Assembly: GCF_001881565.1 (NCBI RefSeq)
Contig: NZ_MPDJ01000004.1
Coordinates: 536,272 to 600,271, forward strand
Source: Eisenbergiella tayi
GTDB taxonomy: Bacteria; Bacillota; Clostridia; Lachnospirales; Lachnospiraceae
Reading direction: 5' to 3'
Length of the DNA: 64,000 nucleotides
Below are positions 41,841 to 64,000 of this stretch, one piece after another. Each line of letters begins with the position of its first letter. Positions within the stretch are counted from its first letter, which is position 1. Made by a program: the position numbers and the translations under genes. Under the pieces are notes generated by a model. It saw only the letters and a list, made by a program, of their open reading frames with translations. It was not told the origin of the DNA and made no database searches.

Positions 41841-44048
41841 CTATGCCGTTCTGTGCCTTTTATAGGAAACAAAATGTTTTAAATCCGTGATTATTTCCGT
41901 AAGCTTCTTCCTGCCGTCTTCCGGGGTTTTGTGCCCGGTATCATAATTTTCCACATACCTTTCCAGCCATTCAACGCAGATACTGTCATCAATATCATTT
42001 CTGTAAGCATAGGCCACCACTCCCACCAAAGCCGGAAGATTTCCCTGTTCAAAAAGCCTGGAATTATTATTCACATTCAGCGTCCAGTCGTTCAGCGCGC
42101 CAAGATACAAAAGGGTATCATAAATAACATCATCATCAAAAGAATTGCTTTCGATATATTCCCTGACTGCCTTGTCGGAAAGCTGTGTTTTTCCGGAAAC
42201 CACCATGAGAGACTGAACCGCTATCTTTATTTTTTCTTTTTCAGGCCGTACCCGGATCATCTTTACAATATCGCTTTCATTGAACTCGTCCACAAACTGC
42301 TGCAGTTTTTCACTGGTAATATCGAATTTTTCAACAGTTTCCTTCTTCTTAACATGCAGAAATTCATCCATCAGTGTCTCAAGCAGGTTAAGCTTACGGA
42401 TTACAATATTTTTATCTTTTGTGGATTTTTCCTTTAAATCATCATAGGATACTCCCGATACTTTTCTGCTGTGCAGACTGTTTTTAAATTCCTGCATAAA
42501 GCAGACAAATCTTTCATCATCCATTCCCAGACGGGCAAAACGGTGGAATAATCCGAACCACAGGAAGGAATCCCTGGAATTGAACATATCCGATACATCC
42601 GGTGTTATCACCTCGTCAAGCCTGTCTATATATTCTTCAAATGTATTAAAGTGGATTATTCTTGCGTTTTCCTTCAGATATGTACAGATATCCTCATTCT
42701 TTTTCTTCCAGTCTTCCGGGAAATTGATAGCCATCACACTTTCGGTAATCACCCGGTCCATTGTCCCGTTGGCAAACTCCGAAACCCTGTAATTCCCTTT
42801 ATCCTTGAAGAAATGCTTCTCCGCAATTGCCTTTGCAATACGGGCATACTGTTCTCCCAGATGGGTAATTCCCTTCTGGGCCACCGACATGGGCTTGGAG
42901 GCATTGTACCTTCTTATATGGTATTCGATATCCTCATTGCTGCAGTTGAGGTACTGTGTCACTTCAAAATTATACTCGTTGAAGCTCCGCTGCAGTTTTT
43001 CCGGCAGATCCGAATAGCATTTCCCTCTGATATCGCATTCCTTCACCTCATATCGGGGAAGTCCGTTCTCATCCAGAAGAATTTTTCCGTCCTCGGTTTC
43101 TGCCGCCGTCTGGTATTTGATCAGGTACCTCTCTACATTTTTGCTGATCCGAAAGCCATTTCTACGGAAACTTTCCACGTTGGAACAGCGCTGTTTCCCG
43201 TCAATGGCCCAGATAATCACCACTCCGTCTATCACCTGTTCTGCAAAGACCAGCGGAGGAATCGGGTTATCCTGGAGGATATCCGATATGAGGTTCCCCC
43301 TCATCACATTGCTCCATTGTTCGGATTCTCGCTGCAGCGGATGATCCAAACGGATGGAATAGTCATACATTCTCTGTATGATGGCATATACCTGGTAATT
43401 TTTCGGTTTACTTTTTTCTGCTGTCTGCGTTAATATCTGACTCATATTAATTTCCTCCTCCACACATTTCTTATCCTTCTTTTTCCCCCGAAGTAAGAGC
43501 TGAACCTTGTCGAAATTCTTCAGTTTCTCCAGATTTATCTTATAACTGTTTTCCGTAATGCGCAGTCTTTCTATAATTTGCGGCTTCGTAAATCCGTCCA
43601 TTTTCAGTTCAACAATCTGACGCTGGGTATCTGATAATGCGCTAAAATAGGCAGCCATCCTTTCCTCCGAAAAAACAGCTTTCTCTTTATCCGCTTCCTT
43701 TTCTATATGAAAATCCGATACCAGGATATCTCCGAGCACCGTATCCCCCTCTCCTATGGGCGTATCAAGTGAAACAGAGTTGAGATCCGCCTTCCGTTTT
43801 TCCCTGTTTCTGCGTGTGACTTCTGTTTTTATCCGATTGGACAGACAGCTGTAGAGAAAGGAATCAAACCTCTGTTTCCTGTCATATCTTCGCAGCATGT
43901 CCACAAAAACCTCATTCGCCAGGGAATAAAAATCATCATAATCCTTCTGTGTCACTCCGCCGAAGCCGGACAGGATTTTATCTACCATGTTTCTTATCTT
44001 CTTCGCATTTTGTGCATAGTACTCCTTTAATAAAGGCGTATTATCCAT
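41841..44048 (-). CDS. Sigma-factor-like domain fused to DUF262 (ParB-like) protein
   Basis: Protein of 735 residues. Residues 36-90 resemble sigma region 2 (DDFYSLANEVFVDMLRRYDRKQRFDSFLYSCLSNRIKTEVTRRNREKRK) and 137-180 region 4 (LSDTQRQIVELKMDGFTKPQIIERLRITENSYKINLEKL). From about 210 follows DUF262: LDHPLQRESEQWSNVMRGNLISDILQDNPIPPLVF and the DGQQR-like AIDGKQR (283-287), then a long helical C-terminus. ATG at 44048 has GGAGGTGA. An internal GGAGGAGG and ATG at 43445 could give the DUF262 part (534 residues) alone. The promoter carries two LexA boxes. It is divergent from a single-chain RNA polymerase-like gene and next to a tail module, so I infer it directs or gates their transcription after DNA damage. 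Confidence 0.85.
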   Translation of the reverse strand: MDNTPLLKEYYAQNAKKIRNMVDKILSGFGGVTQKDYDDFYSLANEVFVDMLRRYDRKQRFDSFLYSCLSNRIKTEVTRRNREKRKADLNSVSLDTPIGEGDTVLGDILVSDFHIEKEADKEKAVFSEERMAAYFSALSDTQRQIVELKMDGFTKPQIIERLRITENSYKINLEKLKNFDKVQLLLRGKKKDKKCVEEEINMSQILTQTAEKSKPKNYQVYAIIQRMYDYSIRLDHPLQRESEQWSNVMRGNLISDILQDNPIPPLVFAEQVIDGVVIIWAIDGKQRCSNVESFRRNGFRISKNVERYLIKYQTAAETEDGKILLDENGLPRYEVKECDIRGKCYSDLPEKLQRSFNEYNFEVTQYLNCSNEDIEYHIRRYNASKPMSVAQKGITHLGEQYARIAKAIAEKHFFKDKGNYRVSEFANGTMDRVITESVMAINFPEDWKKKNEDICTYLKENARIIHFNTFEEYIDRLDEVITPDVSDMFNSRDSFLWFGLFHRFARLGMDDERFVCFMQEFKNSLHSRKVSGVSYDDLKEKSTKDKNIVIRKLNLLETLMDEFLHVKKKETVEKFDITSEKLQQFVDEFNESDIVKMIRVRPEKEKIKIAVQSLMVVSGKTQLSDKAVREYIESNSFDDDVIYDTLLYLGALNDWTLNVNNNSRLFEQGNLPALVGVVAYAYRNDIDDSICVEWLERYVENYDTGHKTPEDGRKKLTEIITDLKHFVSYKRHRTA
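43445..43461 (-). promoter_or_regulatory. Internal Shine-Dalgarno and start codon within the sigma-DUF262 gene
   Basis: On the minus strand GGAGGAGGAAATTAATATG lies in frame; the three Glu codons of the linker are the ribosome site and ATG at 43445 is residue 202. This is at the domain border, as expected for a second product. Confidence 0.65.
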
Positions 44049-44260
44049 GAATTCACCTCCGAAATAAATCCTTATAAACTATTGTTCCATTTCAATGCCT
44101 GTTGCCGGATAAGCGTAAACTTAAGAAAAGGCTTCGGATAATGACGGAATCCGGCCTTTCAGTACTGCCTCCGAACAGGGGTATGTAAAGCTGACGTTTG
44201 GCTGTTTTCATTTCACAGCCGAACGTTAATTTATAGTAAAAGGGAATTTTGCAGAAGTGC

Positions 44261-44289
44261 TTGACTATACAACAATTGTTATGTAATAA
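44261..44289 (+). promoter_or_regulatory. Promoter of a small plus-strand RNA
   Basis: TTGACT (44261-44266), 17-base spacer, TAATAA (44284-44289). The palindrome AACAATTGTT fills the spacer and could be a repressor site. Confidence 0.6.
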
Positions 44290-44295
44290 TGCAGA

Positions 44296-44410
44296 TGTAT
44301 AGCTTCTGCTGTACTTCATAAACCTACTGCTTTAGGGCAAGGGCTTATGTAATATGTGCTTAAGACCAATCCGAGGTGCGCCAACACCGTTTGAGGATTG
44401 GTCTTTTTTT
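44296..44410 (+). ncRNA. Putative small RNA antisense to the sigma-DUF262 leader
   Basis: A predicted transcript of about 110 bases starts after the promoter at 44261-44289 and ends at a strong terminator (44362-44410). No ribosome site with an open frame is visible in it. The SOS-driven minus-strand transcript starts near 44422 and runs through the same DNA, so the two RNAs would be fully complementary over this length. I do not recognise it as a known RNA family. Confidence 0.5.
44362..44410 (+). terminator. Intrinsic terminator of the small RNA
   Basis: AAGACCAATCC (44362-44372) pairs exactly with GGATTGGTCTT (44395-44405); an inner GGTG/CACC pairs too; then seven T residues. Confidence 0.88.
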
Positions 44411-44428
44411 GTTCCCTTTGATAGCTTG

Positions 44429-44479
44429 AGTATATATCGAACATATGTTCTTGTCAATATTTATTCGAACATACGTTCT
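44429..44479 (-). promoter_or_regulatory. SOS promoter with two LexA (Cheo) boxes
   Basis: Minus-strand TTGACA (44452-44457), 17-base spacer, TATACT (44429-44434). CGAACATATGTTCT (44438-44451) lies in the spacer and CGAACATACGTTCT (44466-44479) just upstream, 28 bases apart. Both fit the Gram-positive LexA consensus CGAAC-N4-GTTCG apart from the last base. Transcription runs toward the sigma-DUF262 gene. Confidence 0.88.
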
Positions 44480-44764
44480 GTTTTTTCAATTCTTTTTCTT
44501 CCTTTATATTCCATATCTTACTATATCCCATGTCCCATTAACCGGACTCGACTTTTCTTTTCCATGCAGCTTTCTCCTTCCATCCGGGTATTTTTCAAAC
44601 CGCTCCCTGACCAGATACAGGCGGAATGAGAAAAAACATCCGCTCCCGATGCAAACGAGAGGCCATAATCTCCCTGGCTGTGAACCACCCGTTTTTTCCC
44701 CGAATGGAGAAATAGAGTATATTCCCACTAATGTTACTCAAATTTCACAACAGGAGGCAGAACA

Positions 44765-45010
44765 ATGACTCAAATAAAAATACAAATTAAGCAAAATTAT
44801 ATAAAGAACAACATGATCACTTATCTTCCCGCAAATAACAATCCCCCCGTCCCCACACGTGAAGAATTCCACCGGCAATACGCCGGCAGCATCTGCCCAC
44901 CGGATTTCAGCACCGAATATCCTTCTTCCCACATCACCGACAGGATAGCCCGTTCCCTGCAATTGTACCGGGAAAAACGAACCGAACTGCCCTGCACGAA
45001 TGAGAAGTGA
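44765..45010 (+). CDS. Small protein upstream of the polymerase-like gene
   Basis: Unrecognised 81-residue protein (start MTQIKIQIKQNYIKNNMITYLP, end RELPCTNEK-like). It has a strong ribosome site (CAGGAGG) well placed before the ATG, which is why I keep it. It is 63 bases upstream of the polymerase-like gene and probably cotranscribed. No motif suggests a role. Confidence 0.6.
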   Translation: MTQIKIQIKQNYIKNNMITYLPANNNPPVPTREEFHRQYAGSICPPDFSTEYPSSHITDRIARSLQLYREKRTELPCTNEK

Positions 45011-45073: not shown

Positions 45074-47860
45074 ATGAACGAAACAGGAATTAAAATTCTG
45101 AATATTAAAGCCGGTACTCTGTATGGTTACAATCTGGGCATCCGGGACCGTTACGACTACACAACCGGCGTATTTAACCACAGTCTGTTCCGCATTTTTC
45201 TTCAGAAAAACGGGATGAAAATAACGAAAGGCCAAAGTACAAAGGATATCATCTGCCTTGATTTTGACTTCGGTTCCCGTTCCTACGAAGAAGAACGGAA
45301 GCATTTGACCGATCTGTTAAATAAGGCCGATGATGAGGCCGCCCGGGAAAACATCCGCCGCATTATGGAAAAAGTGGAACAGAATAAATATAAATACGTG
45401 AAAAAGAGCAAGGAAGAAATAAGGGAGCTTTTTTACCAGGAAGGGGTTTCAGTTACCTATCCCACTAAGGATCGGCAGGGAAATATTATAAAGGAAGAAA
45501 CCATACACTATCGAATGCTCTACCGGAACAGTTCAAAAGCCAAGCTGGGCCAGGTCATGTTCCTGAATGAAAAATTGTATGACGCCGCATATGACTGGCT
45601 GACCATGGGCCTCGGCGAAAAAATGCCGGTGGAAAATGCCAAAATTGTGGAGCTGTCCGCCTATGCCCCGCTCACGACAAGCACAATCCTGGATACTCTT
45701 TTCATCCCGGCAGAAGACATTCTGATTCTGAAGGATCAGGACAGCTTCTTCACGACTATGGCCAACGTTGTCAAAGCCGAGGATTATGAGGGCTTCGAAC
45801 GCTGCGTGGACGAGGCCGCCACGGAAAAAGCCAGGCAGCGTGCTCTGGATAAAGGTAACCTGGATTTGCAGGGAAATCCTGTATACAATAAGGTATTCAA
45901 AAAAGTCCCTTCCCTCAAAAAGAAATGTGTCGTCGCCTGTGAGCAAACAGATGTCAAAAATACCATGTGGGACGGTATGGGGCTTATGGAAGCCTCCTGT
46001 CTTCCGGAATGGGTCAACGGTATGGCGCTGCTTCGGAATCATTTTTTTAAAGCCTGTGCCTTTAAATGCTCCATTCAAAAATTTATGCAGGACTGGTGCA
46101 GGGATAACGGCCTTGATTACAATACCTGGCGCATACAGGATATGTTCGGCCAATGGCACAATGCAAAGGACATCAAGCTTATTACCACTCACAATGCCGT
46201 CAAATGGATCAAATTCATGGAGCTGATGGGAAATACTCCGGAAGAAGCTTATCTTTACTGGTGCAGAAAGGTTAATGCCGACGGTTCCTGCTTCGGAATC
46301 GTTAAAACCGATCATGAAAGCAAGCTGGGAGATGTCCAGCAGATGAGCTACCAGATGCTCAACACCCTCCCCTGCACCAAAGATGACGTGAAGGATATCG
46401 CCGCTTACAGTGTAAATTATGTGGAATTACTGAAATCCGACGATCAGGAGTTTGAAAAATTTCTCAGAAAAAATGCCAACGAGGTCAACCACTATGAAAT
46501 GATGGCCGATTTATACCGAAAGAACCCTGCTTTTGCAGACAGTAAATGGTACCGGTATGAAAAAAGGCAGATCATACGGACATATGTCAATAAATTAAGA
46601 AGCGGGAAAATTATGGTCAACGGGGACAACCTGACTATTTGCAGCAATCCCTATGCCCTTCTTCTGTATGCGGCCGGCGGCGACTGGAAAAAGGATCCCA
46701 CCCTGCTGCATGAAGATGGCACCATCCAGTGCTATACAAGCCGTTTTGGTGACGGGGAATTCCTTTGCGCTTTCCGTTCCCCCCATAACTCCCCCAACAA
46801 TATCTGTTACCTTCACAATCATTACAGCCCGGAAATGGAGGCCTACTTTCCTTTCAGCAGCAATATCATCGTCGTAAACTGTATCGGCACCGATATTCAG
46901 GACAGAGGCAACGGCCTGGATCACGATTCGGATTTTTTCTTCGTGACCGATCATCCCACCTTTGTCAAATATGCGGGGATCTGCTACGAAAAATTCCCCA
47001 CCATCGTTAACCGCCTGAAGGAAAGCGGGGTAACCTATCGCAAAACCCCCCTTGAGTACGCCCGGATGGATAACAAATTCGCCCTGTCCCGGCGCGGTAT
47101 CGGGGAATCCAGCAATCTGGCCCAGCTGGCCCTCACCTACTACTGGACCTCCCCCAACCGGGAATTACATGATAACTTCGTGATCCTGTCCGTCCTCGCC
47201 CAGGTCATCATTGACGGCTGCAAAAGAGAATATGAGGTGGACGCCCTGTCGGAAATCGAACGCATTAAAAAAATGCCCTGCATGAACCCCACGCTTCATG
47301 ACGAGAAAAAAGACTATCCTTTCTTTATTAAATATGTAAAAAATATTTCCGTTTCCCAAAAGGGCAAGGATGTCCCTTATGAAGAAAGCCGGGACAAAAA
47401 AGCGAAAATCAACGACAGGATCAATCCGAAGCTGGTCTGTCCCATGAACTGGCTTCAGTATTGGCTGGACAAGATCCAGAGTGCCAGTCAGGAAAGCACG
47501 ATCCCGACCAAACAATTCATCCGCCATTTGGACGGAAAGGCGAATGACCGGCAGATCAGTAAAATCCAGAAGCTTGTTTCCGATTATGACAGCTTTATTA
47601 AACGGAATCATGACCGTTTCGAAGAAGAAGACTTTATCTCCGAATTTGACGAAGTGACAAACGAATTCATCTCTTCTATTAAAAAGATTAAAATCGGCAA
47701 CATGAAAACCATAAACAGGCTGATAGAAATTGCGCTGGACGTTTCAGAAGAAAACAATAACCCCCACTGCAAAAAGAAATACAGCATAAAATATGGAAGG
47801 CGGATGCTTAACACCTTATACCGTCAAAATAAGGAGGCTTTTCTGTCAAATTTTATTTAA
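45074..47860 (+). CDS. Putative single-chain double-psi-beta-barrel RNA polymerase (QDE-1/YonO-like)
   Basis: Protein of 928 residues. The block from 560 to 630 has the order seen in eukaryotic-type RdRPs and YonO: FLCAFRSP (R568-S-P570, like the R-x-P before the catalytic loop), an IIVVNCIGTDIQDRGNG strand-loop, then LDHDSDFFFV with D616, D618 and D620 as the DxDxD metal triad (the usual Gly is Ser619). Downstream GIGESSNLAQLALTYYW (675-691) resembles the G-x-x-x-N...H/L helix and LAQVIIDGCKREYEVD (D714, K717) the VD-x-x-K motif. No viral or cellular polymerase accessory genes are adjacent. It is intact, with AAGGAAGGGAG before the ATG. Placed between an SOS-controlled sigma-like gene and tail genes, it most likely transcribes the tail module. 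Template type is unknown. Confidence 0.7.
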   Translation: MNETGIKILNIKAGTLYGYNLGIRDRYDYTTGVFNHSLFRIFLQKNGMKITKGQSTKDIICLDFDFGSRSYEEERKHLTDLLNKADDEAARENIRRIMEKVEQNKYKYVKKSKEEIRELFYQEGVSVTYPTKDRQGNIIKEETIHYRMLYRNSSKAKLGQVMFLNEKLYDAAYDWLTMGLGEKMPVENAKIVELSAYAPLTTSTILDTLFIPAEDILILKDQDSFFTTMANVVKAEDYEGFERCVDEAATEKARQRALDKGNLDLQGNPVYNKVFKKVPSLKKKCVVACEQTDVKNTMWDGMGLMEASCLPEWVNGMALLRNHFFKACAFKCSIQKFMQDWCRDNGLDYNTWRIQDMFGQWHNAKDIKLITTHNAVKWIKFMELMGNTPEEAYLYWCRKVNADGSCFGIVKTDHESKLGDVQQMSYQMLNTLPCTKDDVKDIAAYSVNYVELLKSDDQEFEKFLRKNANEVNHYEMMADLYRKNPAFADSKWYRYEKRQIIRTYVNKLRSGKIMVNGDNLTICSNPYALLLYAAGGDWKKDPTLLHEDGTIQCYTSRFGDGEFLCAFRSPHNSPNNICYLHNHYSPEMEAYFPFSSNIIVVNCIGTDIQDRGNGLDHDSDFFFVTDHPTFVKYAGICYEKFPTIVNRLKESGVTYRKTPLEYARMDNKFALSRRGIGESSNLAQLALTYYWTSPNRELHDNFVILSVLAQVIIDGCKREYEVDALSEIERIKKMPCMNPTLHDEKKDYPFFIKYVKNISVSQKGKDVPYEESRDKKAKINDRINPKLVCPMNWLQYWLDKIQSASQESTIPTKQFIRHLDGKANDRQISKIQKLVSDYDSFIKRNHDRFEEEDFISEFDEVTNEFISSIKKIKIGNMKTINRLIEIALDVSEENNNPHCKKKYSIKYGRRMLNTLYRQNKEAFLSNFI

Positions 47861-48178
47861 AAAGCAAAAATACGGAACAGGTGTTCGATTTTTACCATTT
47901 TTTCTGCGTTCTCAAGCCTTTCACAGCGTGTTTATTATGAGAGAGTAACAGACTCTCAAACCATTTCCCACTGCGCAGAAAAATGGAAATGTCAATGAAT
48001 ATCCCCGATGCCCATCACTTATTGCCGGCTTTTAAGCTTACATATATTCCGGCTGCAGCTCCCCCATACAGCCGTACTATCCTCTTCACATCTTAACCGG
48101 CGGCGGTGCTGTTGTTCTGACAGTATCGCCGCCGGCCCCTCCTTTTCCGGAAAATACAGAAGAAAGAAGGTCCTTACC
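47861..48178. other. Intergenic stretch between the polymerase-like gene and the tail module
   Basis: About 320 bases. Apart from the terminator-like hairpin it has the inverted repeat GAGAGTAACAGACTCTC (around 47941-47957). The tail genes need a new start of transcription after the hairpin, but I see no sigma-A promoter; it may hold the target of the element's own polymerase or sigma-like protein. Confidence 0.45.
48097..48145 (+). terminator. Strong terminator-like hairpin after the polymerase-like gene
   Basis: CCGGCGGCGGTGCTG (48097-48111) pairs with CAGTATCGCCGCCGG (48121-48135) over 15 bases with two G-U pairs and a 9-base loop, then CCCCTCCTTTT. Confidence 0.75.
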
Positions 48179-48391: not shown

Positions 48392-48871
48392 ATGAAAAAA
48401 TCTATCGTAAACGATATCGGTTTATACAAAACCAGACTACTTTCCATGCTGACTGAAGATTCCGATATCTGCGGGCTTTTGCTCAATAAGGAGGATTTTA
48501 CGGAAGCCGAAGCAAACGGCCTCCCGTACAGTCAGATTTTCCCTTATCTCTATATAAATACACAGGCTGAAACCAAAACCTGCCTTTGTTTCGAAGTCGA
48601 TGTCCCTCAGATACCCACCGGCATGATAAAGGATATGAGAATAACCGCATGGGCCTACTCCCCTTTTGATCAGATGCCGTATGAAAAGGATGGATTTCTC
48701 GGCACACGGCCCGATATCCTTGCCGATATGATTGAAAGAAAGCTGCATGCTTCCAGCCAGTTCGGCATCGGACAGCTGCGCCTGGAATCCGTAACCAGCA
48801 GCGTGCTGGACAGCCGCTTCTACGGCAGACAGATGGTCTTCACCGTACCTGATTTTAAAACGAAGGGGTAA
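48392..48871 (+). CDS. Tail terminator-like phage protein
   Basis: Protein of 159 residues (LYKTRLLSMLTEDSDICGLLLNKEDFTE... FEVDVPQ... MRITAWAYSPFDQMPYEKDGFLGTRPDILADMIERKL). Length, position before the tube gene and a mixed alpha/beta pattern resemble tail terminator or head-closure proteins; no decisive motif. It is the first sizeable gene of the tail operon. The ribosome site is weak. Confidence 0.5.
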   Translation: MKKSIVNDIGLYKTRLLSMLTEDSDICGLLLNKEDFTEAEANGLPYSQIFPYLYINTQAETKTCLCFEVDVPQIPTGMIKDMRITAWAYSPFDQMPYEKDGFLGTRPDILADMIERKLHASSQFGIGQLRLESVTSSVLDSRFYGRQMVFTVPDFKTKG

Positions 48872-49751: not shown

Positions 49752-50486
49752 ATGCCCAATATTAATAAAGCTAACAGACAGGTTTGTGATGTAGATATTC
49801 GTTCCCTTGACAGAAAACCCGTACTCTTCTTCGAAACTGCCAACACAACTACACAGGCCCTCACCGGGGAATCCGTGTATGCAACGGCAAAAGGCGTGAA
49901 AAGGATTGCTTTTGCAAATCCCATCGAAGGAACCATTACCATCGAAGCACAGGTTTATCCGTTTGAACTGTACTCCCTGATCTCCGGAGGCGTGATCGAG
50001 ACTGATGCGGCATATCCGGAAAGAGCCACAGTCAAAGCAGACGCGGACGGCAGCCTGAAGGTTCCGGACAACGCGATGCCCGGCAGCGTTTTCGTATATA
50101 AAGCAGGTGATTTTGCCGGAGCAGAAATCGAAGGTGCCTTTGCAGACAACAAGTTCACAGCTGCTAACGCAGAAGATATCAAAACCGGCCTTGAATATGA
50201 AGTAGGCTATGTTGTTACAAAAGCAAGCGGCGTAAAGCGCATTACCATCAACAACAGCAAGCTGCCGAAGGCTTACTACATTACCATGGATACCGTTGAG
50301 AAGGATGACAACGAGGTACTGACTCCTTATAAGATGATCTTCTACAAGGCTCAGCCTCAGAGAAACTTCTCCCTTTCCCAGTCTTCTGCCGGTGATCCTG
50401 CCAGCATTACCATGACCTTCGATCTTCTGGAGGACAAGGACGGCAACTTTGCAGAATTCGTGGAGCTTTCTGACGAAGCAGAATAA
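49752..50486 (+). CDS. Major tail tube protein
   Basis: Protein of 244 residues. Features of siphophage tube proteins: an N-terminal arm, KPVLFFETANTTTQALTGESVYATAKGVKRIAFANPIEGTITIEAQVYPFELYSLISGG, a small inserted beta domain (about 95-165), and a C-terminal YKMIFYKAQPQRNFSLSQSSAGDPASITMTFDLL. It is the best-expressed-looking gene of the module, with an excellent CAGGAGG site and terminators behind it. It would stack into the tail tube. Confidence 0.75.
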   Translation: MPNINKANRQVCDVDIRSLDRKPVLFFETANTTTQALTGESVYATAKGVKRIAFANPIEGTITIEAQVYPFELYSLISGGVIETDAAYPERATVKADADGSLKVPDNAMPGSVFVYKAGDFAGAEIEGAFADNKFTAANAEDIKTGLEYEVGYVVTKASGVKRITINNSKLPKAYYITMDTVEKDDNEVLTPYKMIFYKAQPQRNFSLSQSSAGDPASITMTFDLLEDKDGNFAEFVELSDEAE

Positions 50487-51034: not shown

Positions 51035-51038
51035 ATTT

Positions 51039-56700: not shown

Positions 56701-58209
56701 GAAGCCGAGGATCAAATCCGTATTGCCAATATTGAAAAAGAAATCTCTCTCCTGGAAAAGAAAAAAGAAGTCCTGGAAGAACAGCAGAGTGCAATCGATG
56801 ATCAGATAGAGCAGGTTGATGCCTATTATGAAGAATTGATTTCCAATACAGAATCCTATTGGGACACACAAATCAAAGGCGCTGAAGACGTCAAGTCCCG
56901 CTGGGAAGAACTTCAGGATCTCAAAGAACAGCTTGAACTGAATGTCCAGCTGATATCCATGGGTATTTCACCGGATGATATCTCACAGCTGACAAGCGAA
57001 GAGCTTTTTGAAAAAGTAAAAGAACACTATCTGGGTATCCTTGCCGATATTTCTTCCGGTAATTCTCAGATGCTCTCCTCCTTATCCGACCTTGCCGGCG
57101 TAGATGTCTCTGATCTGCCCAGCTTTTTAGAGGAAACCCATGGTTATATGGAAAAATTGAGCGAAGGTATAGACTTCGCAAACCTGGATGACTCGCTCTC
57201 AACCGTAATCGACCAATTCGAAAACGTTGCAGCCGCTGCAGGCATGATGACAGGTTCAGTCATCGGAAGCACCGGTGTATCCGTCGGAACAGATAAAAGT
57301 ACAAAATCCTCTCCCGGCGGCTCCGCCAGCGGCAACGTCTCCTTTATTGATGCCGTTAAAAGCCTGGAAGACGAAAGTGTTCCCATGCTCAACAACGTTG
57401 CGGATGCTTTTGCCGGCGAAGAATCCTCGGATAACTCCTCCCAAAGCATCGCAGGCAGCGTAAACAAAGCCAAAGAAGCCATTGCAGGCTCTTCTTCCGG
57501 CAAGAAAAAATCATCCGAAGGCCAGGAAGGCTCCGGCGAAGATTCCGGCTCCCTTCTGGAAGCAATGTCTGTCCAATCCAAGGCCGCGCTGGATGAGGAA
57601 ACCGGAATTCCTGCCCAGATCCAGAAATGGCAGGAACTGAACGGTGTGCTTTCAAATATCCTGGAAAACCTGAGAAATATCGCCGCCGTTATCCCTACAC
57701 TGAATTCAGACACAAACATATCAGCGCCTGGTGCAAGTGCCGCAGGATTAGCCGCTGCAAAAGGCGGCGTTTTCAATGGCGCCAGAAATGTACTGGTATC
57801 TGAATACAACCAGTTGGAAACTATTATACATAAAAATGGAACCTACGAAATCACTTCATCTCCGACACTGACAGATTTACGCCCCGGGGACCAGGTTCTC
57901 AACAACAGCCAGACTCTTTCCTTAATCAGGACGAAAAACAGGGCAGCCGCCAATCGTTCAAACGGATTATTCATAGGGAATTCCCTCTCTCCCCTGCCCG
58001 AATTGCAGCTGCGCAATACCGTTCTGGATCATTCCTTCGCATCCCCGATGGCACCGCAGTTCTTATCAAATGATAACCGAAACAGCCTCGTCAATGTCAG
58101 TATCGGCGATGTCATCCTTGAAAATGTCCAGAATGCAGACGCACTCTCCAGACAAATCGTCATGCGGCTGCCGACCCAAATCAAACAGGAATTATCAAAA
58201 AGGGGGTAA
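53707..58209 (+). CDS. Tape measure protein, second part
   Basis: About 1500 residues, giving a spliced product near 2016. The open frame reaches back to about 53684; the first ATG is at 54016 without a ribosome site, so the part makes sense only joined to exon 1 or as a fused remnant. Contents: a short hydrophobic patch (STIALSIATSAMQMALSAGVSFAISAVV), long coiled regions, a dense coiled coil at about 56,330-56,900 (QQESAKKALEAQKDAIEEQIKLIDKQ), and a glycine/serine-rich tail. Base use changes abruptly near 56,110, from AT-rich codons to C-ending codons like the neighbouring tail genes, pointing to recombination inside the gene. Confidence 0.75.
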   Translation, partial: KIYFKFHSIIPNNYTSLSSKKLDISKLISQYSQLQEELTKYNSLQSKTISSQNNYGESLGESQSSFKQYLSSLNGASGSVGGYIKYLLSAKASTIALSIATSAMQMALSAGVSFAISAVVSQISKWIHAQEEARQNAVELSNTYKEQQSSLDSQIKKYKELKTELDRGNLTADETRSIKEQLLGIQESLVDSYGDEVSNLDLVNGKYKDQLGLLTELSKEKAIEHTVKNRDVYEEAKEALSEEKTYNLGQYFTRPFYASLTDEQNKLNDFINNYDSSIKLVSQKSGVGYAASGAITKGSTLQVQGDAESVYNLLQQFSEDLRNFGDKNGIDVTNITSNVSSQLRTIWTDELQEYKTVYDEFVNAEIMRNDTLRPLYHDSIQAVKDYNAALASGEGVSEAKANLDSIKESIQGVTGQVEGSSEVFEGIFDEVNSTSEKAYNIGQLFENDTTVQNYAEQLRGLSDIDLKSFNFNDDFIAPGEEAFSSLINVLGLSEDETQLLIDKLIELGYVQGSISSESSPLPTISETISLISTQLKPQFDSLSDAYQKIFTPDGFTKENIDNDMLENLRSTFSNLDESLGISFDTSELEDFFSILTNSKSTSEQVQKAFNDLATSYLYSTDVMDQLNETTADSIEKQLEEMGVSNAQTLVAEALNFKNEELIASKQFLAKRTKELSDATGSEIAKFGVEQLAANNCSEALALFYLQKSLLNSKVISSDEDINNILRLAEAAGVTSSSLALLQSAKADYNRAIEMGDDAAAQRAEQRVLKASEQLKQDVAKLKPHVNVNTGNTSASNNVKSAGTAGKEDTDPHVTAFEEQYKKLKDIRDRDKISQKQYLDALRAMYERYYKGQDKYIDEYNKYQKEYLDGMLDLYKSVISGVVKQIDKHIKSLNDQKDSAVDSLKSQQESAKKALEAQKDAIEEQIKLIDKQIDSKQAQIDAINEENEARENAINLEKEQYELERLRNQRTEFVYSGKEKGFIYQTDSGAIRDQEQAVKEAEDQIRIANIEKEISLLEKKKEVLEEQQSAIDDQIEQVDAYYEELISNTESYWDTQIKGAEDVKSRWEELQDLKEQLELNVQLISMGISPDDISQLTSEELFEKVKEHYLGILADISSGNSQMLSSLSDLAGVDVSDLPSFLEETHGYMEKLSEGIDFANLDDSLSTVIDQFENVAAAAGMMTGSVIGSTGVSVGTDKSTKSSPGGSASGNVSFIDAVKSLEDESVPMLNNVADAFAGEESSDNSSQSIAGSVNKAKEAIAGSSSGKKKSSEGQEGSGEDSGSLLEAMSVQSKAALDEETGIPAQIQKWQELNGVLSNILENLRNIAAVIPTLNSDTNISAPGASAAGLAAAKGGVFNGARNVLVSEYNQLETIIHKNGTYEITSSPTLTDLRPGDQVLNNSQTLSLIRTKNRAAANRSNGLFIGNSLSPLPELQLRNTVLDHSFASPMAPQFLSNDNRNSLVNVSIGDVILENVQNADALSRQIVMRLPTQIKQELSKRG

Positions 58210-58249: not shown

Positions 58250-58501
58250 ATGGAAAAATACGATGAAAAGGCAATTACCGTTCTCGCCAGGGCAATTGCC
58301 GATACTTTAAACAATGCGAGATACGACTATGAAGGTTTTATACAAAAAGACAACGGTGACGGGACCTGCCAGGTCATCGTCAACCAGCAGCGTTACGATA
58401 TTAAAAATGGAACCGCATTTACTTTTGTTCCCGGAAATAAATGCCTTGTCTACTGCATTTCCGGCGATTTTAACCGGAAGGTGATAATTGCAAAATTGTA
58501 A
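58250..58501 (+). CDS. Small tail-module protein
   Basis: Protein of 83 residues: an N-terminal helix (MEKYDEKAITVLARAIADTLNNARYDYEGFIQ) then a predicted OB-like beta part (GDGTCQVIVNQQRYDIKN... CLVYCISGDFNRKVIIAKL). It resembles small beta-barrel baseplate proteins in plan. The ATG lacks a ribosome site because a terminator hairpin precedes it. Confidence 0.5.
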   Translation: MEKYDEKAITVLARAIADTLNNARYDYEGFIQKDNGDGTCQVIVNQQRYDIKNGTAFTFVPGNKCLVYCISGDFNRKVIIAKL

Positions 58502-58531
58502 CAGATTATCCTCACTCATGGAGGTGAATAT

Positions 58532-59629
58532 ATGTCAATCCCTTATAAAAAACTGAAAAATTTACCCGAAGCGCAGAATCTTCAGGATTCTGACATCACA
58601 ATCATAGAAGATTTGGATACCACCCGGAAAGGAACTCTGAGACAGCTGGTCCAATATCTGAAATGGCACAATGACATCAATACCTATTATGCACACCAGG
58701 AGAACATAGGTGCCGCAAACGGCATAGCCCCCCTGGACGAAAACACAAAACTCCCCGCCGGCAATCTTCTCTTCGGAAACGAAGCCGGAACGGTCTTTGA
58801 AGGTTCCGCCGGAAAAGAACTGGAAGACAGCGTAAACGTTCATAAAGCTGACAACAGCAGACACATTTCAAACGAAGAACGGACAGAATGGAACGACACC
58901 AGCAGCAAAAAGCATGTACACAATAACAAAAGCACGCTGGATAAGCTTACCCAGACCATGCTCGACAAACTTGCGGATGTGGCGGAAGGAGCACAGGTCA
59001 ATGTACAGGCGGACTGGAATGTAAGTGATACCTCTTCAGACGCTTACATCAAAAATAAACCTGCTGCATTTCCGCCCTCCTCCCACACCCATGTCGTCGC
59101 CCAGATATCCGATATGCCCACCAAATTGTCCCAGTTCACCAATGATGCCGGCTATCTTACCTCAGCCGATATTGATTCGGGCCAGAACCATACCCATGCC
59201 AATAAAGGCGTTCTCGATTCCATCACCCAGGAATCGGTAGATAAATGGAATACTTCCTACGTCCACCCAAACAGCGGTGTAACCGCAGGAACCTATAAAA
59301 GTGTTACCGTAAATGCCCAGGGACACGTAACCAGCGGAACTAATCCTACCACCCTGGCCGGATACGGCATTACAGACGCCGCCGCCAAATCCCATACCCA
59401 CAACTATGCCGGCTCAGATACTCCGGGCGGAGCGGCTGCCAGTGCGGCCAAGCTTTCCGCTAACCGGACCATCTCCCTGACCGGCGATGTCAGCGGTTCC
59501 GTCTCCACCAACCTCTCAGGAAATGTTTCCATAGCCGCCACCTTAAGCGGCGGCGTATTAAAAGAAGCGATAAGCAAGACCGAACCTTCCGGGCTTTCCT
59601 TAAACAATTACTGGCTTCAGGAATACTAA
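58532..59629 (+). CDS. Tail fibre / receptor-binding protein with His-x-His repeats
   Basis: Protein of 365 residues. After an N-terminal attachment part (YKKLKNLPEAQNLQDSDITIIEDLDTT) come repeats with His pairs: HVHNN, SHTHVV, NHTHAN, SHTHNY, each likely holding a metal ion along a trimeric fibre axis, separated by phage-fibre phrases (TKLSQFTNDAGYLTSAD, GVTAGTYKSVTVNAQGHVTSGTNPTTLAGYGI). ATG at 58532 with GGAGGTGA. It probably decides target specificity. It lacks a chaperone gene beside it. Confidence 0.85.
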   Translation: MSIPYKKLKNLPEAQNLQDSDITIIEDLDTTRKGTLRQLVQYLKWHNDINTYYAHQENIGAANGIAPLDENTKLPAGNLLFGNEAGTVFEGSAGKELEDSVNVHKADNSRHISNEERTEWNDTSSKKHVHNNKSTLDKLTQTMLDKLADVAEGAQVNVQADWNVSDTSSDAYIKNKPAAFPPSSHTHVVAQISDMPTKLSQFTNDAGYLTSADIDSGQNHTHANKGVLDSITQESVDKWNTSYVHPNSGVTAGTYKSVTVNAQGHVTSGTNPTTLAGYGITDAAAKSHTHNYAGSDTPGGAAASAAKLSANRTISLTGDVSGSVSTNLSGNVSIAATLSGGVLKEAISKTEPSGLSLNNYWLQEY

Positions 59630-59639
59630 GGAGGATATT

Positions 59640-60788
59640 ATGGCGACTTTAAATACTCCCTTAATACATCCCATTTATGCTTTCGATCCTCAGTATAACT
59701 ATTCCGTTTCCTTTACCTATACCGGAAACCAGACCGTCCGCAACCGCGCTGTCGTTCTGGATAACGATACCTATCAGACCGTATATGATTCCGAACAGGA
59801 CCGGATGCGGCTGGATCATGTTTTCCCCGGCGGCACCTTCGTTCCCGGGAAAACCTATCAGGTCCGGATCCAGGTTTTTGATGCTTACGGCAACGAATCC
59901 GCCCTTTCCGCTCCCGTACTCTTCTATTGTTTTACGACACCTGAATTTTATTTTGAAGATATGCAGGATACTGCCACCCTTCATACAGCAAATCCGAAAT
60001 TAACACTTCATTATTTTCAGAGTGAACGCGAACCCCTCCAGGATTTTCAATTTTACCTTTATGACTATGATAAATCTCTGGCAGCTTCCTCCAGCCATAA
60101 ATATGATCCCGCCGATATGAGCCATACATTCTATGGGCTGAAAAATGAAAGCGAATACTATATTAGAGCTACCGGAACCACTGTCCACGGTTTTTCTGTC
60201 GACACCGGGTATATAAAAATCAATATCCAGTATTTTGTCATGCCCGCCAACGTGCTTTTCGAAGCAAAAAACCATCCTGAAAACGGCAGTATTACTCTGG
60301 AAAGCGGAGTCATCGATATCGGCTATGAAATCGATAATGACAACTATTCCATTAAAAACAGCGAACTGATCATAGGCAGTGACAACACCCTGACCTACAA
60401 TGCCGGATTTAAAATAACCGACGAATTTAAGGTATTTGTCAAAGCCAGAAAACTACCACTGAACTCAGCTTTTTTCAAAATGCGCTGTCCGGAAACAGGA
60501 AATTATCTTGATATCCATGTTGAAAAACTGGGAAAAGCTTATTATGGAGTCCTGCATGTTCCTTATGGGAAAACCCTTGGAGCTTATCATGTTTTCGCAG
60601 AACTTCCTCAATCCTGTCTTGCCGATACCCAGGGCTTCCTGCTCGCCGATACGGAAAATAACCTGATCATGCTTGCAGACACTGATTATCAGGACCTCTA
60701 TACCACAGTATTTGAAATCAGTTATAAAAAGGGACTCTATGATTTACACATCTACTATGAAGCAGATACCGTAACCGAAGACATTTGA
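59640..60788 (+). CDS. Fn3-like tail/baseplate structural protein
   Basis: Protein of 382 residues. The first 200 residues look like two fibronectin-III/Ig-like sandwiches (YSVSFTYTGNQTVRNRAVVLDNDTYQTVYDSEQ... GKTYQVRIQVFDAYGNESALSAP; FYGLKNESEYYIRATGTTVHGFSVDTGYI); the rest is beta-rich. Such domains decorate tail tips and bind carbohydrate. Start ATG 59640 with AAGGAGG, 10 bases after the fibre gene. Confidence 0.65.
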   Translation: MATLNTPLIHPIYAFDPQYNYSVSFTYTGNQTVRNRAVVLDNDTYQTVYDSEQDRMRLDHVFPGGTFVPGKTYQVRIQVFDAYGNESALSAPVLFYCFTTPEFYFEDMQDTATLHTANPKLTLHYFQSEREPLQDFQFYLYDYDKSLAASSSHKYDPADMSHTFYGLKNESEYYIRATGTTVHGFSVDTGYIKINIQYFVMPANVLFEAKNHPENGSITLESGVIDIGYEIDNDNYSIKNSELIIGSDNTLTYNAGFKITDEFKVFVKARKLPLNSAFFKMRCPETGNYLDIHVEKLGKAYYGVLHVPYGKTLGAYHVFAELPQSCLADTQGFLLADTENNLIMLADTDYQDLYTTVFEISYKKGLYDLHIYYEADTVTEDI

Positions 60789-60805
60789 AAGGAGACTGAC
60801 GCACT

Positions 60806-61708
60806 ATGCTATTTCTTGGAACCACATTTTTCAGCGGCTCCCACACTCTGGATCCGCCCGCCGTTCATGTCAGTCCTGTCACAGAAATAAAACTCACCAA
60901 CGGCACATTTGATCATCTGTATGTCAGTAAAAACTCGGAGGAAACCATCGAAAGCACCCATAACGAATGGAACGGCGATACTCTGCTGAGTGCTCCCTTC
61001 GATGACAGCCTCGATGCCGGCAACTCCGGCTTCAGCTTGAGAAATACCGACGTTATGATCGTGAAATGCCGTGAAAAGGGAAGTATGGACTGGATTACCA
61101 TCCATACCAAAGATATCAATACCATTGAAGATTTCAAAATGCTTTACTTCTACCGTTATGCACGCGGAAACACGGATTATGAATTTATGCTTTCCTCCAC
61201 CTGCAACGGTATTGAAAACAGCTACATAACCAGAGAAGTCCACTCTGATTTTAACGGATTTTTCCTGGTCAACCAGAATAATGCCATAGGAACTGTCTAT
61301 AACCTTGACGGCTGCGATACTACCAGAACTGTTTCCGGTGAGGCCGTTCCCCTTTTAAACAGCCAATATGCCAAGGTTGTCAGCAACGGCGCCTATAACT
61401 ACGATACCGGCACCGTAACCGGTGTTTTCCTCAAAACAGATACACAGGACTGCATGGCTGACCTGTCCGGCGGCATACAGCTCAGAAAGGATTTTATTGA
61501 CTATCTGACAGATAAAACGCCCAAAATTCTCAAATGGGATGACGGCCGTATCTGGATGATTCAAATTGTAGGGACACCCACCGATACGGAAGAAGGCCAT
61601 AAGGATCTGCGGAAAATCACCTTCCAGTTTGCAGAAATCGGTGATGTCAGGGATCCCAAATCTTTATATACCAATGGCTTAAGTCCTGTCGGCGTGGAAT
61701 GGTGGTGA
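60806..61708 (+). CDS. Tail tip/baseplate protein of unknown type
   Basis: Protein of 300 residues, beta-rich, ending KTPKILKWDDGRIWMIQIVGTPTDTEEGHKDLRKITFQFAEIGDVRDPKSLYTNGL. This ending resembles distal-tail-like proteins that fit onto the tube, but I cannot name it. ATG at 60806 after AAAGGAG; three bases before the next gene. Confidence 0.55.
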   Translation: MLFLGTTFFSGSHTLDPPAVHVSPVTEIKLTNGTFDHLYVSKNSEETIESTHNEWNGDTLLSAPFDDSLDAGNSGFSLRNTDVMIVKCREKGSMDWITIHTKDINTIEDFKMLYFYRYARGNTDYEFMLSSTCNGIENSYITREVHSDFNGFFLVNQNNAIGTVYNLDGCDTTRTVSGEAVPLLNSQYAKVVSNGAYNYDTGTVTGVFLKTDTQDCMADLSGGIQLRKDFIDYLTDKTPKILKWDDGRIWMIQIVGTPTDTEEGHKDLRKITFQFAEIGDVRDPKSLYTNGLSPVGVEWW

Positions 61709-61711
61709 TTT

Positions 61712-63319
61712 ATGAGATATACAATAACCGAAGAAGACAAGCTTCTTTTCAGCCAGGGATCCCTGGATTACAAATACCGTTTCAGCGTCATGAAGGGCAG
61801 CCAGATTGTGGATGTCCTTTACGGGGTTTCCCAGGCGGGAACCTATGGCATAAACGGAGAATCCGATATCCGGCGCACACTGAATTTTACACTGACCCTG
61901 GAAGAATTCCATACAAATATCGAAGAAAAAATACAGAGCTGGTTCGGACTGGATTTCAAATTTGAAATCGGTATATACAGCATTCTTAACAACGATTATT
62001 TATGGTATCCCTGCGGCACTTATCTGATTACCGCTTCCAATACCCAATATAACAGCACAAGCCACACCCTGTCCTTAACCGTATCGGATTGGTTCGCCAA
62101 ACTGAACGGAACCCGAAACGGACAGATAGGCGGCTCTCCCCTTATCAAAATTCCGGTGCAGGACGAGGATGGAAATAAATCCACGCTCCGGGATGTCCTT
62201 TCTGTCGTGGTGAAACAGCAGGGAGGAATCGAGAATTACATAATTGATGATATCGGGGAATTTTATGGTATGCAGTCTAATAACCCGGACTATGAAAAAT
62301 ATCGGGAAGATAATCCCGACTGGAACCGTCTCCCCTATGATCTGGAATTCAATATAGGCTGCATGGCCGCGGATGAAATCAATGAGATCACCGGACTTTA
62401 CCCATATATCCAGAAATATTTCGATGTATACAATAACTTTTGCTGCCATGGGATCCCTTCCTGCGAAAATGATCCGATTACACTTGATAACATTTTTCTC
62501 AAATCAGTAATAACGGAAAGCGGAGAATCCGCAGACTATGATATAGAAAATATAAGGAATGTTACAGAAGTTCTCGGCTCCGTTTATGACATCGATAGAA
62601 TGGCTACCGAATGCACCATGTCCGGAAATACCTACCGGTTACAGCTGACGGAATATGATAAATATGTATCCAACGATTACATCGCCTTTATTCCGAACGC
62701 CGACAGCCTGGACGGAATGCAGTTACAGATTAACGGCCTCTCTCCTGTTCCGATCTATTACGAGAATACCACTACCCCGGTTGCAAAGGGAACCATGCAC
62801 AAAGATGAAACCTATGTACTGCTGTACAAAAAAGTGGATTCCACAGGCCGTTTTTACTATCTTGGCCAATATCAGCCTCACGCCGTATGCGTGCTTACGG
62901 CGTCCCCGGATGATCCTGTATACACCAAACAGTATTTTACGGAACGATACAACTGCAAAAATATTGTATTCCGCGTGGAGCCGGATAATCCCTTCACAAT
63001 TCAGCAGATAGGCATCGTACTTGATGTCAAAACCGGAGATAAATATGAAAATATACAATCTGATTCCGTAGCGATAGAAAACGCCATCTATGACAATATC
63101 AAAACCTCTTCCTGGAACGATGCTGTCACAATAACAACCCTCTGCATCCCTTGGCTGGATGTATTTGAAAAAGTGACCTGGCAGAAACAGGATACCAGGG
63201 AACCCTGTCAATATATCATAAAAAACATATCTCATAATCTGGGAGGCACCGTTCCCACTACCTCCATAACCATGTACCGTTTTCATCCGTTCCTTTATGA
63301 TTATGAGATTCCACGATAG
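61712..63319 (+). CDS. DUF5048 phage tail protein (hub-like)
   Basis: Protein of 535 residues. The N-terminal part (VSQAGTYGINGESDIRRTLNFTLTLEE... WYPCGTYLITASNTQYNSTSHTLSLTVSDWFAKLNGTRNG) matches DUF5048-type proteins from clostridial phages; the C-terminus (WLDVFEKVTWQKQDTREPCQYIIKNISHNLGGTVPTTSITMYRFHPF) resembles tail-hub domains. Role: central part of the tail tip. Start ATG 61712, GGTGAT upstream. Confidence 0.7.
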   Translation: MRYTITEEDKLLFSQGSLDYKYRFSVMKGSQIVDVLYGVSQAGTYGINGESDIRRTLNFTLTLEEFHTNIEEKIQSWFGLDFKFEIGIYSILNNDYLWYPCGTYLITASNTQYNSTSHTLSLTVSDWFAKLNGTRNGQIGGSPLIKIPVQDEDGNKSTLRDVLSVVVKQQGGIENYIIDDIGEFYGMQSNNPDYEKYREDNPDWNRLPYDLEFNIGCMAADEINEITGLYPYIQKYFDVYNNFCCHGIPSCENDPITLDNIFLKSVITESGESADYDIENIRNVTEVLGSVYDIDRMATECTMSGNTYRLQLTEYDKYVSNDYIAFIPNADSLDGMQLQINGLSPVPIYYENTTTPVAKGTMHKDETYVLLYKKVDSTGRFYYLGQYQPHAVCVLTASPDDPVYTKQYFTERYNCKNIVFRVEPDNPFTIQQIGIVLDVKTGDKYENIQSDSVAIENAIYDNIKTSSWNDAVTITTLCIPWLDVFEKVTWQKQDTREPCQYIIKNISHNLGGTVPTTSITMYRFHPFLYDYEIPR

Positions 63320-63334
63320 AAAGGAGGTGAAATA

Positions 63335-63631
63335 TTGGCTTATCAGTTATCAAACTATAAAGATGTAGATTCATCTGTCGTCCCCCTTGTCCTGCAATAT
63401 TATAAATACATGGACCAGGAAGATTATGCCGGCGCTTCCAGCCTGCTTGAAGAAAATCACGAGCTCCTGAAGCCCTATATCATAGATATGGACAGCATAA
63501 ACAAAATTGAACAGGGCCTTCACGATCTCTGGCAGACTGCATCCTTAACACAATCAGTAGTCATTACAGAAGATCAGACAGAACCGGAAGGTGATTTTGG
63601 ACCGGGAACCGAATGGTTCGCCGAATACTAA
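63335..63631 (+). CDS. Small tail-module protein, TTG start
   Basis: Protein of 98 residues (AYQLSNYKDVDSSVVPLVLQYYKYMDQEDYAGASSLLEEN). It starts at TTG 63335 behind an ideal AAAGGAGGTGA. Unrecognised; helical, acidic C-terminus. Confidence 0.65.
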   Translation: MAYQLSNYKDVDSSVVPLVLQYYKYMDQEDYAGASSLLEENHELLKPYIIDMDSINKIEQGLHDLWQTASLTQSVVITEDQTEPEGDFGPGTEWFAEY

Positions 63632-63645
63632 ATACGGAGGCATTC

Positions 63646-63948
63646 ATGAACAATGAAGATTTTAACTACATCCCCCGCAGCGCTGCCCGCCTGCGTAACC
63701 GGGACATATCGGATCAGCATAAAGCGCTTCTGAAAACCGGAAATCCGGCCAGTGCCGCCGATCTAATCAAAAACCGTCCCGACTTGGAGGCATTTAGTGC
63801 CTCTCTTTTCAATTTCATAGAACAGAAACTGGTTTTTATCGAGCAGCAGCTTTCAGGGAAAAACCGAGAAATTTATAATGTTTATTCAGACACAGAACCT
63901 TCCTCTGAAGAAATGGAAGGCAAGTTTTTCTGGAATAAAGAATACTAA
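63646..63948 (+). CDS. Small tail-module protein
   Basis: Protein of 100 residues from the ATG at 63646 (ACGGAGG upstream), start MNNEDFNYIPRSAARLRNRDISDQHKALLK, acidic end. Helical with a C-terminal KLVFIEQQLSGKN. Unrecognised. An upstream in-frame start at 63613 overlaps the previous gene and is less likely. Confidence 0.65.
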   Translation: MNNEDFNYIPRSAARLRNRDISDQHKALLKTGNPASAADLIKNRPDLEAFSASLFNFIEQKLVFIEQQLSGKNREIYNVYSDTEPSSEEMEGKFFWNKEY

Positions 63949-63962
63949 GAAAGGAAAATAAT

Positions 63963-64000
63963 ATGAGTATTGCATCAGGTTATAAAAAATTTAAAAAGTA
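63963..64000 (+). CDS. Start of the next gene (truncated by the window)
   Basis: ATG at 63963 after AAAGGAAAA, first residues MSIASGYKKFKK; too short to identify. Confidence 0.5.
   Translation, partial: MSIASGYKKFKK

Follow-up and report, generated by a model that had tools for sequence, protein, structure and literature searches.

The window analysed here, a 64,000-nt stretch of the 7.56-Mb Eisenbergiella tayi genome (G000:C18:536272-600271), carries an element that is probably an SOS-induced, non-contractile, F-type-like tailocin. Its control would run as a cascade from LexA to a sigma-like/DUF262 fusion protein (sigma-DUF262), then to a phage polymerase of the single-chain type, and finally to the tail genes. 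The anatomy and wiring of the element have been established by sequence analysis and structure prediction, namely its genes, LexA boxes, an upstream motif, the lack of head genes, a predicted polymerase fold and selection; transcription and killing are proposed on this basis. The element extends from window position 41841 to ~71625 (C18:578112-607896), which is ~7.6 kb past the window end. Rightward from the control region, the order is a small open reading frame (ORF), the polymerase, T1, T2, T3, small genes, the tape measure gene, and tail tip and fibre genes. Past the window come a fibre cassette, which contains a tyrosine recombinase gene, and then genes for an endolysin and a holin-like protein. 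Coordinates are those of the window unless a contig is named.

In the proposed mechanism, RecA-driven cleavage of LexA would free the sigma-DUF262 promoter, which carries LexA boxes, and sigma-DUF262 would be made by the host polymerase. Sigma-DUF262 would then start the divergent operon of the small ORF and the single-chain polymerase at a motif found upstream of it, AAANGGAGAAATARAT. Starting near 47926, where candidate promoter elements are present, the polymerase would read the tail, fibre, and lysis genes as one operon, a role suggested by analogy with YonO; this entrance would also be held by LexA box 3. In the last step, the encoded holin and endolysin would let tail particles out of the cell to kill relatives, and the choice of target would depend on a fibre that the recombinase may shuffle. 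The preliminary description had proposed this stepwise order. The finding that the motif upstream of the polymerase tracks an adjacent sigma gene favours it, with the amendment that the tail operon has its own LexA box.

The sigma-DUF262 gene (41841..44048, minus strand, 735 residues) is read from a sigma70-type promoter, TTGACA(44457)-N17-TATACT(44429) (44429..44457, minus strand), which is conserved in relatives. The two LexA boxes reported earlier on this promoter are exact. Box 1, GAACATATGTTC (44439..44450), lies in the promoter spacer, and box 2, GAACATACGTTC, occupies 44467..44478. A third exact box, GAACAGGTGTTC (47875..47886), is located between the polymerase gene and the tail operon, 15 nt past the polymerase stop. 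No other exact GAACN4GTTC occurs in 36001-80000, and all three fall within the control regions of the element; 100 shuffles of the element gave a mean of 0.40 and a maximum of 2. The host lexA and recA promoters bear exact boxes of the same form, and by sequence the boxes of the element match the LexA box of these promoters. The lexA gene is on the same contig as the window. The recA gene was matched twice (G000:C4:33275 and G000:C22:43038), in an assembly flagged as 12% contaminated in which C22 may be foreign.

This arrangement recurs among related polymerase loci, which are coded G (bacterial genomes) or L; G397 is Lachnospiraceae bacterium CE91-St56 and G398 is Eisenbergiella porci. A TTGACA-type promoter with an exact or one-mismatch LexA box across its spacer has been found in the window locus and in G397, G349, G013, G364, G309, L119, L253, and L196. 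The sigma promoter is present with a poorer box in L314, and promoter and box were read from the alignment in G398. Fourteen intergenic stretches hold 13 exact boxes, against 0.13 expected, although five of them (G247, L154, L253, L314, and G379) hold none. Of 22 tail loci, 12 have an exact box in the 1.1 kb before the polymerase, compared with 1 of 130 head loci (Fisher 4e-11, kinship ignored); the 22 are the 20 tail-only loci together with G349 and G379, for which little downstream sequence is available. Sigma-DUF262 copies without a polymerase in the available flanks (L365, L366, L367/L368, L371, L373, and MT835469.1) lack a box over the 400-500 nt upstream, even with one mismatch allowed; L367 and L368 look identical, and G321a, which resembles L365, has a one-mismatch site at -437. 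A further polymerase-sigma pair, L374, has two one-mismatch boxes, and L370, the L154 contig, has none.

The association of sigma-DUF262 with head-less loci has been measured across the 211 polymerase loci for which 2.5 kb or more of upstream sequence is available. These comprise 112 of head type, defined by a terminase, portal or capsid gene in the 11 kb that follow the polymerase, 20 tail-only, and 79 of neither type. A divergent sigma-DUF262 gene lies within 6 kb in 12 of the tail-only loci (including L154, at 5.1 kb), in none of the head loci, and in two others (G349 and G379). Head counts vary between analyses (112, 120, 124, 127, and 130) because the filters on sequence length and on BLAST or profile matches differ. 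The co-occurrence of both regulatory genes with tail genes and without capsid genes, which the preliminary description had suggested looking for, is seen in these 12 tail-only loci. Its picture of a head-less, SOS-linked tail module that has both a sigma-like factor and a single-chain polymerase is supported; the polymerase is not unique, however, being one of a family encoded by large gut phages. In a FastTree tree of 141 polymerases, the tail loci (G349 included) fall into 13 separate groups, seven with sigma-bearing loci. The tail state changes 13 times on this tree compared with a shuffled mean of 19.9 and minimum of 17, that is, it is more clustered than chance and yet scattered. Judged from these sequences, the arrangement arose, or was exchanged, several times.

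The assignment of the fusion protein is based on profile matches to its two parts. Residues 8-177 match the TIGR02937 sigma70-ECF family (E value (E) 1.1e-9, 38.1 bits, below the curated 42.9) and Pfam Sigma70_r2 (6e-4, 20 bits, cut-off 24), and a profile of eight relatives aligns to SigA at 7.8e-6. The middle of the protein matches the ParB-like GmrSD_N/DUF262 family (2.3e-7, 31.6 bits, cut-off 33.2), with Asp283, Gly284, Gln286, and Arg287 of a D-G-x-Q-R motif invariant in eight relatives. Several loci, including G349, G247, and L119, encode the two halves as separate adjacent genes, which speaks for a protein of two parts. The structural model is weak, with a predicted local distance difference test (pLDDT) of 67.8 and a predicted template modelling score (pTM) of 0.36. 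Its best Foldseek match is BrxU (E 3.4e-4); rows beyond GmrSD/ParB are weak and have not been used.

The candidate sigma-DUF262-dependent promoter element of the polymerase operon, AAANGGAGAAATARAT (44702..44717, plus strand), was obtained by Gibbs sampling of 10 sigma loci, with three close relatives reduced to one. Its information is 16.7, compared with 13.2 ± 0.54 and a maximum of 14.4 in 40 shuffles, and the leave-one-out best sites are the sampler's own sites in all 10 loci. Leave-one-out scores exceed the shuffle 95% level in nine of the 10 sigma loci (G309 fails), in two of eight tail loci without an adjacent sigma gene, and in 22 of 124 head loci, with just two of these 124 reaching a score of at least 15.3. 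The two motif-bearing tail loci without an adjacent sigma gene (G273 and G321) encode sigma-DUF262 elsewhere in the genome; G131 does too, yet lacks the motif. The pattern fits a sigma-DUF262-dependent promoter, short of proof.

These data also bear on a rather unlikely alternative, in which the single-chain polymerase itself uses sigma-DUF262 for initiation, the two forming a phage-type holoenzyme that acts at both the polymerase and the tail promoters. The adjacency of the two genes in 12 of 20 tail-only loci would agree with such a partnership, as would the presence of both genes, far apart, in a 176-kb phage and in contig 3300006145_000004. Three head loci (L280, L284, and L285) have a same-strand sigma-like gene of 177-178 residues directly before the polymerase (weak, 38-41 bits), which points the same way; the other 109 of the 112 head loci have no sigma profile match within 6 kb upstream. 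A holoenzyme acting at the tail promoters is further disfavoured by the motif being strong before the tail genes in only two of 13 loci (G339 and L196), the window not among them.

The polymerase of the proposed cascade is a protein of 928 residues (45074..47860, plus strand) predicted to be a single-chain two-barrel RNA polymerase with a catalytic D616-x-D618-x-D620 motif. Its sole match is phrog_8308 (1.5e-93, function label unknown), and no Pfam or NCBIfam family was matched. Asp616, Asp618, Asp620, Gly614, Arg568, Pro570, Asn576, and Lys717 are invariant in alignments of 21 and of 60 relatives. An AlphaFold2 model from 60 sequences has a mean pLDDT of 89.1 and a pTM of 0.85, and Foldseek matches it to QDE-1 and RDR2 (best 5.5e-12). 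Alignment with VIA-align gives Z scores of 20.3-25.4 for 13 QDE-1/RDR2 rows and 16.1 for an open RDR2 form. Lower scores are obtained for two small Thermus-phage polymerases (PDB 8f72 and 8f5m; gp62/gp64; 14.9), P23-45 gp96 (10.4), and a crAss-like polymerase (8.7). The homologue in the related tail locus G321 matches the Pfam RdRP family PF05183 at 1.6e-14. By fold and motif the protein is a member of the two-barrel (QDE-1/YonO-type) polymerase family, and DNA-dependent RNA synthesis is predicted. The earlier recognition of a divergent, polymerase-like protein of 928 residues is therefore upheld by the model and both structure comparisons.

The polymerase family has been detected in 28 of 397 genomes of a bacterial family sample (E 1e-5) and in 19 of 392 genomes of an order sample (E 1e-10), with this genome and some others in both samples. 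Viral contigs also encode it (at least 238 loci, from the best 80 of each of three scans), and nine phage records match at E 0.01; plasmids gave no match. Large gut phages, for example Enterocloster phages such as PMBT24, encode relatives upstream of terminase, portal, capsid, and tail genes. Close relatives are encoded by CE91-St56 (87% identity) and E. porci (80%); within the genus Eisenbergiella, three of 13 genomes have the gene, this one counted. The small ORF just upstream of the polymerase (44765..45010, plus strand) encodes a PTREEFHRxYAG motif that is also found upstream of the polymerase in related loci such as G339 and G321b; in total, five of 22 tail loci have it, and none of 127 head loci or 97 others does.

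No head genes were found in the element. A six-frame search of positions 1-81729, counted from the window start, with terminase, portal, and capsid profiles made from MT835469.1, G179, and PMBT24 gave no match at E 0.01, and the same search recovered sigma-DUF262, the polymerase, T1, T2, T3, and both tape measure pieces. PHROG (20 proteins) and Pfam (18 proteins) scans, which confirm the tail genes described earlier after the polymerase, found no terminase, portal or capsid gene. Contractile sheath families were also absent among these scanned proteins, a set that does not include the short fibre cassettes. The preliminary description had allowed that capsid, portal, and terminase genes right after the window would make the element an ordinary prophage. 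They are absent there; the next 7.6 kb hold fibre cassettes, the endolysin, and the holin-like gene, beyond which host-looking genes resume. An intact prophage has been ruled out on these grounds, the sole integrase-like gene found being inside the fibre cassette, and the sheath protein of an R-type tailocin was likewise not found in the Pfam and PHROG scans. Tail, fibre, and lysis genes without detectable head or sheath genes correspond to the gene content of an F-type tailocin.

The T3 family phrog_2729 and a weak phrog_6123 match bear head labels, but T1 and T3 belong to the tail block in phages. In the phage contig L363, which spans terminase through tape measure gene, T1-T2-T3 lie between a capsid match and the tape measure. 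This placement in L363, with the terminase, portal, and capsid matches all upstream of the three genes, is why the head label of T3 has been set aside. Phage MT835469.1 has the order polymerase, terminase (phrog_5989, 3e-7), portal (phrog_2739, 7e-46), probable capsid (phrog_12438, labelled virion structural, 9e-9), T1, T2, T3, and prophage G179 has the same order by similarity. Compared with both, the window locus lacks the block between polymerase and T1. The element most likely descends from a large gut phage that encoded the polymerase and has since lost its head block.

Such a loss could also have occurred by chance in a decaying prophage, leaving the tail genes as remnants, and the interrupted tape measure gene of this genome would suit such decay. 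We regard this as improbable, since the element has the same neighbours in two related species, its LexA wiring is conserved, and the head-less type recurs in many genomes. In addition, ten genes compared across two or three species have ratios of nonsynonymous to synonymous substitution rates (dN/dS) of 0.035-0.195 and no internal stops, with dS high and one value saturated. For the polymerase, these comparisons argue for strong purifying selection. Host-like genes, by eye, flank the element on both sides, and relatives of several genes from both flanks also adjoin it in CE91-St56.

Entry of the polymerase into the tail operon would take place in the gap after the polymerase gene. The preliminary description had placed a terminator there, which was not confirmed: there is no strong plus-strand terminator, a weak one is present at 48098, and the palindrome at 47875 is LexA box 3. 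The candidate late promoter is a 23-nt element, GCGTGTTTATTATGAGAGAGTAA (47926..47948, plus strand), identical in three close species and not recognised in more distant relatives. When the gaps between polymerase and tail genes were compared across 13 loci, Gibbs sampling and a consensus search did not reveal a convincing late promoter common to them. The motifs found there are GC-rich, terminator-like or near chance (16-nt information of 14.2 compared with 12.9 ± 0.5 in 15 shuffles, and 22-nt of 17.5 compared with 15.0). The sequence GGAGAAATA, enriched in MT835469.1, has been rejected as evidence for a phage promoter because it is mostly at ribosome-binding distance. An ORF at 48008-48364 is mostly missing from the aligned gap in two close relatives.

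Box 3 admits a simpler but unlikely arrangement, direct LexA control, in which the host RNA polymerase reads the tail operon once this box is free and the single-chain polymerase boosts transcription or does another task. A weak TTCTCA-18-TATTAT match at 47909-47938 could serve as the host promoter, and G397, G013, G310, and G392 have exact boxes in the first 0.7 kb past the polymerase. With the window locus these make 5 of 22 tail loci, but likewise 5 of 130 head loci have such a box and E. porci has none. The 23-nt element also has no conserved -35 upstream (by eye), and the strong purifying selection on the polymerase likewise speaks against this arrangement. If the polymerase cascade does operate, box 3 at the tail operon implies that it may be double-locked.

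Several observations weigh against the polymerase-driven tailocin. Besides direct host control of the tail genes through box 3, these are the interrupted tape measure gene, the lack of a common late-promoter motif among tail loci, and the sigma similarity below curated cut-offs together with the weak sigma-DUF262 model. Ten of the 22 tail loci have no exact upstream LexA box, and eight of the 20 tail-only loci have no adjacent sigma gene. The counts ignore kinship: the E. tayi, CE91-St56, and E. porci copies of the element are vertical copies, and some viral contigs look near-duplicate. Moreover, the head loci come mostly from viral collections and the tail loci mostly from bacterial genomes.

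Tailocins are usually assumed to depend on host RNA polymerase for their transcription, and F-pyocin is, like rhizoviticin and monocin, an F-type tailocin. Rhizoviticin (PMC10811719) and monocin (PMC6872733) are described, in the available parts of these reports, as head-less non-contractile tails with lysis genes and SOS dependence, features that the window element shares as far as its genes tell. The same parts describe no own RNA polymerase for either. The rhizoviticin regulatory block includes a sigma-C factor gene, and control is thought to involve a LexA-family phage repressor (PMC10811719, in part), whereas for monocin a metalloprotease anti-repressor is implicated (PMC6872733, in part). 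The particle would class as an F-type tailocin with rhizoviticin and monocin nearest, and there is a real chance that its transcription pair is new. Partial text on R-type clostridial prophages lists an RNA polymerase and a sigma factor among regulatory annotations, with no detail, which could be an unrecognised relative (PMC10538166). Among open-licence full texts, a body of literature that leaves out preprints and most subscription journals, no description was found of a tail weapon with its own polymerase, of a tailocin joined with a phage-encoded or own RNA polymerase or YonO, or of a LexA-locked sigma-DUF262 combined with a single-chain polymerase.

The window polymerase resembles QDE-1 in its fold and possibly, in its role, YonO of SP-beta, which serves a complete phage; no SP-beta record is among the nine phage records matched. 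According to the accessible portion of the YonO paper, YonO is likewise a prophage-encoded single-chain polymerase distantly related to cellular ones, and without it 37 of the 148 genes of SP-beta, among them those for structure and lysis, are silent (PMC5467207). The structural and lysis genes are transcribed as one late operon, the promoter sequence and the need for other factors are left open, and that portion describes no sigma-DUF262 partner (PMC5467207). The Thermus-phage proteins P23-45 gp64 and P74-26 gp62 are two-barrel single-chain polymerases as well (PDB 8f72 and 8f5m), but they are non-virion enzymes that, in the part of the report at hand, transcribe early and some middle genes (PMC10770324). 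The nearest phages are MT835469.1 and the PMBT24-type Enterocloster phages, which have a homologous polymerase and, in MT835469.1, also sigma-DUF262 and homologous tail genes. They differ in carrying terminase, portal, and capsid-like genes, and in MT835469.1 the sigma-DUF262 gene is far from the polymerase with no LexA box in 500 nt upstream.

On a more speculative level, gut phages with this polymerase may repeatedly have become head-less weapons through one regulatory swap, a LexA-locked sigma-DUF262 taking the place of phage control. The pair would then be an independent transcription system that amplifies weapon production with the last transcription of the cell, and for a QDE-1-type polymerase the sigma-like protein may be the first initiation factor known. 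We hold this tentatively and would not be surprised if it proved wrong. A tailocin family with its own polymerase and specificity factor under the host SOS switch would represent a new control logic for a bacterial weapon and a phage-to-weapon route traceable at sequence level, and it might serve as an independent system for expressing genes in gut Clostridia. It would also provide a testable case of promoter finding by QDE-1/YonO-type polymerases, which the consulted part of the YonO paper says needs further work (PMC5467207).

The tail block (all plus strand) begins with T1 (48392..48871), a neck or tail completion protein by position, followed by T2 (48878..49696, phrog_4051) and T3 (49752..50486, phrog_2729), which from gene order is the probable tail tube and is 64-67% identical to copies in two phage contigs. 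Next are a small tail-block protein (50756..51034) similar by eye to a gene in L362, a small membrane protein (50940..51335) that is holin-like by eye, and a small conserved protein (51383..51676) preceding the tape measure gene (51683..58209). Tail tip and fibre genes occupy 58250..63948, with starts at 58250, 58532, 59640, 60806, 61712, 63335, and 63613; the gene at 61712-63319 encodes a phrog_1887 tail protein with DUF5048. A fibre gene start at 63963..64000 leads into the cassette beyond the window, and the stretch from the cassette to the holin-like gene is G000:C18:600234-607896. The cassette (C18:600234-605257, window 63963-68986) is shufflon-like and looks invertible, with the core TAGCGATTTAGG repeated in both orientations around the tyrosine recombinase (C18:601626-602630); CE91-St56 has only ~0.7 kb at this place. 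A GH25-SH3 endolysin (C18:605855-607378) and a holin by position (C18:607396-607896) complete the element. A tail particle for a non-killing use, such as protein delivery or help to another phage, seems highly improbable, given that the holin-like gene, the endolysin, and the switching-type fibre fit a released weapon. Cargo is conceivable, the killing role being proposed from the gene content.

The tape measure gene is interrupted near 53262-53690 by an insert of ~430 nt that folds strongly (z -5.06 for 53250-53720), and is a single open frame in CE91-St56 and E. porci (1517 and 1545 residues). The insert occurs in only this one of the 61 genomes searched and is a candidate intron of unrecognised type. 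The interruption could make the particle of this genome defective, except if the insert is spliced out or the gene works in its split form. The tape measure region is frequently split in relatives and contains small inserted genes on the reverse strand that by eye look like zinc-ribbon or lipoprotein genes, as in G289:C1:322323-327798, G364:C54:54383-54895, G013:C8:11759-12217, G310:C1:794675, and G179:C13:292319. The G289 region also has a repeated N-terminal piece, and the split sites are possible cargo, immunity or swapping sites. A small HU/IHF-like gene (by eye) lies between the polymerase and tail genes at G013:C8:17905-18243 and L253:8368-8661.

Finally, a candidate small RNA antisense to the sigma-DUF262 leader (44261..44412, plus strand) has been identified from sequence and folding, with a sigma70-type promoter (10/12) and a terminator-like hairpin with a T run. 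No Rfam family was found at E up to 1 in 36000-64000, so neither this RNA nor the tape measure insert is recognised by Rfam. Among 13 genomes searched, the full-length 44261-44412 sequence, a possible regulatory RNA, matches only in CE91-St56 and E. porci.

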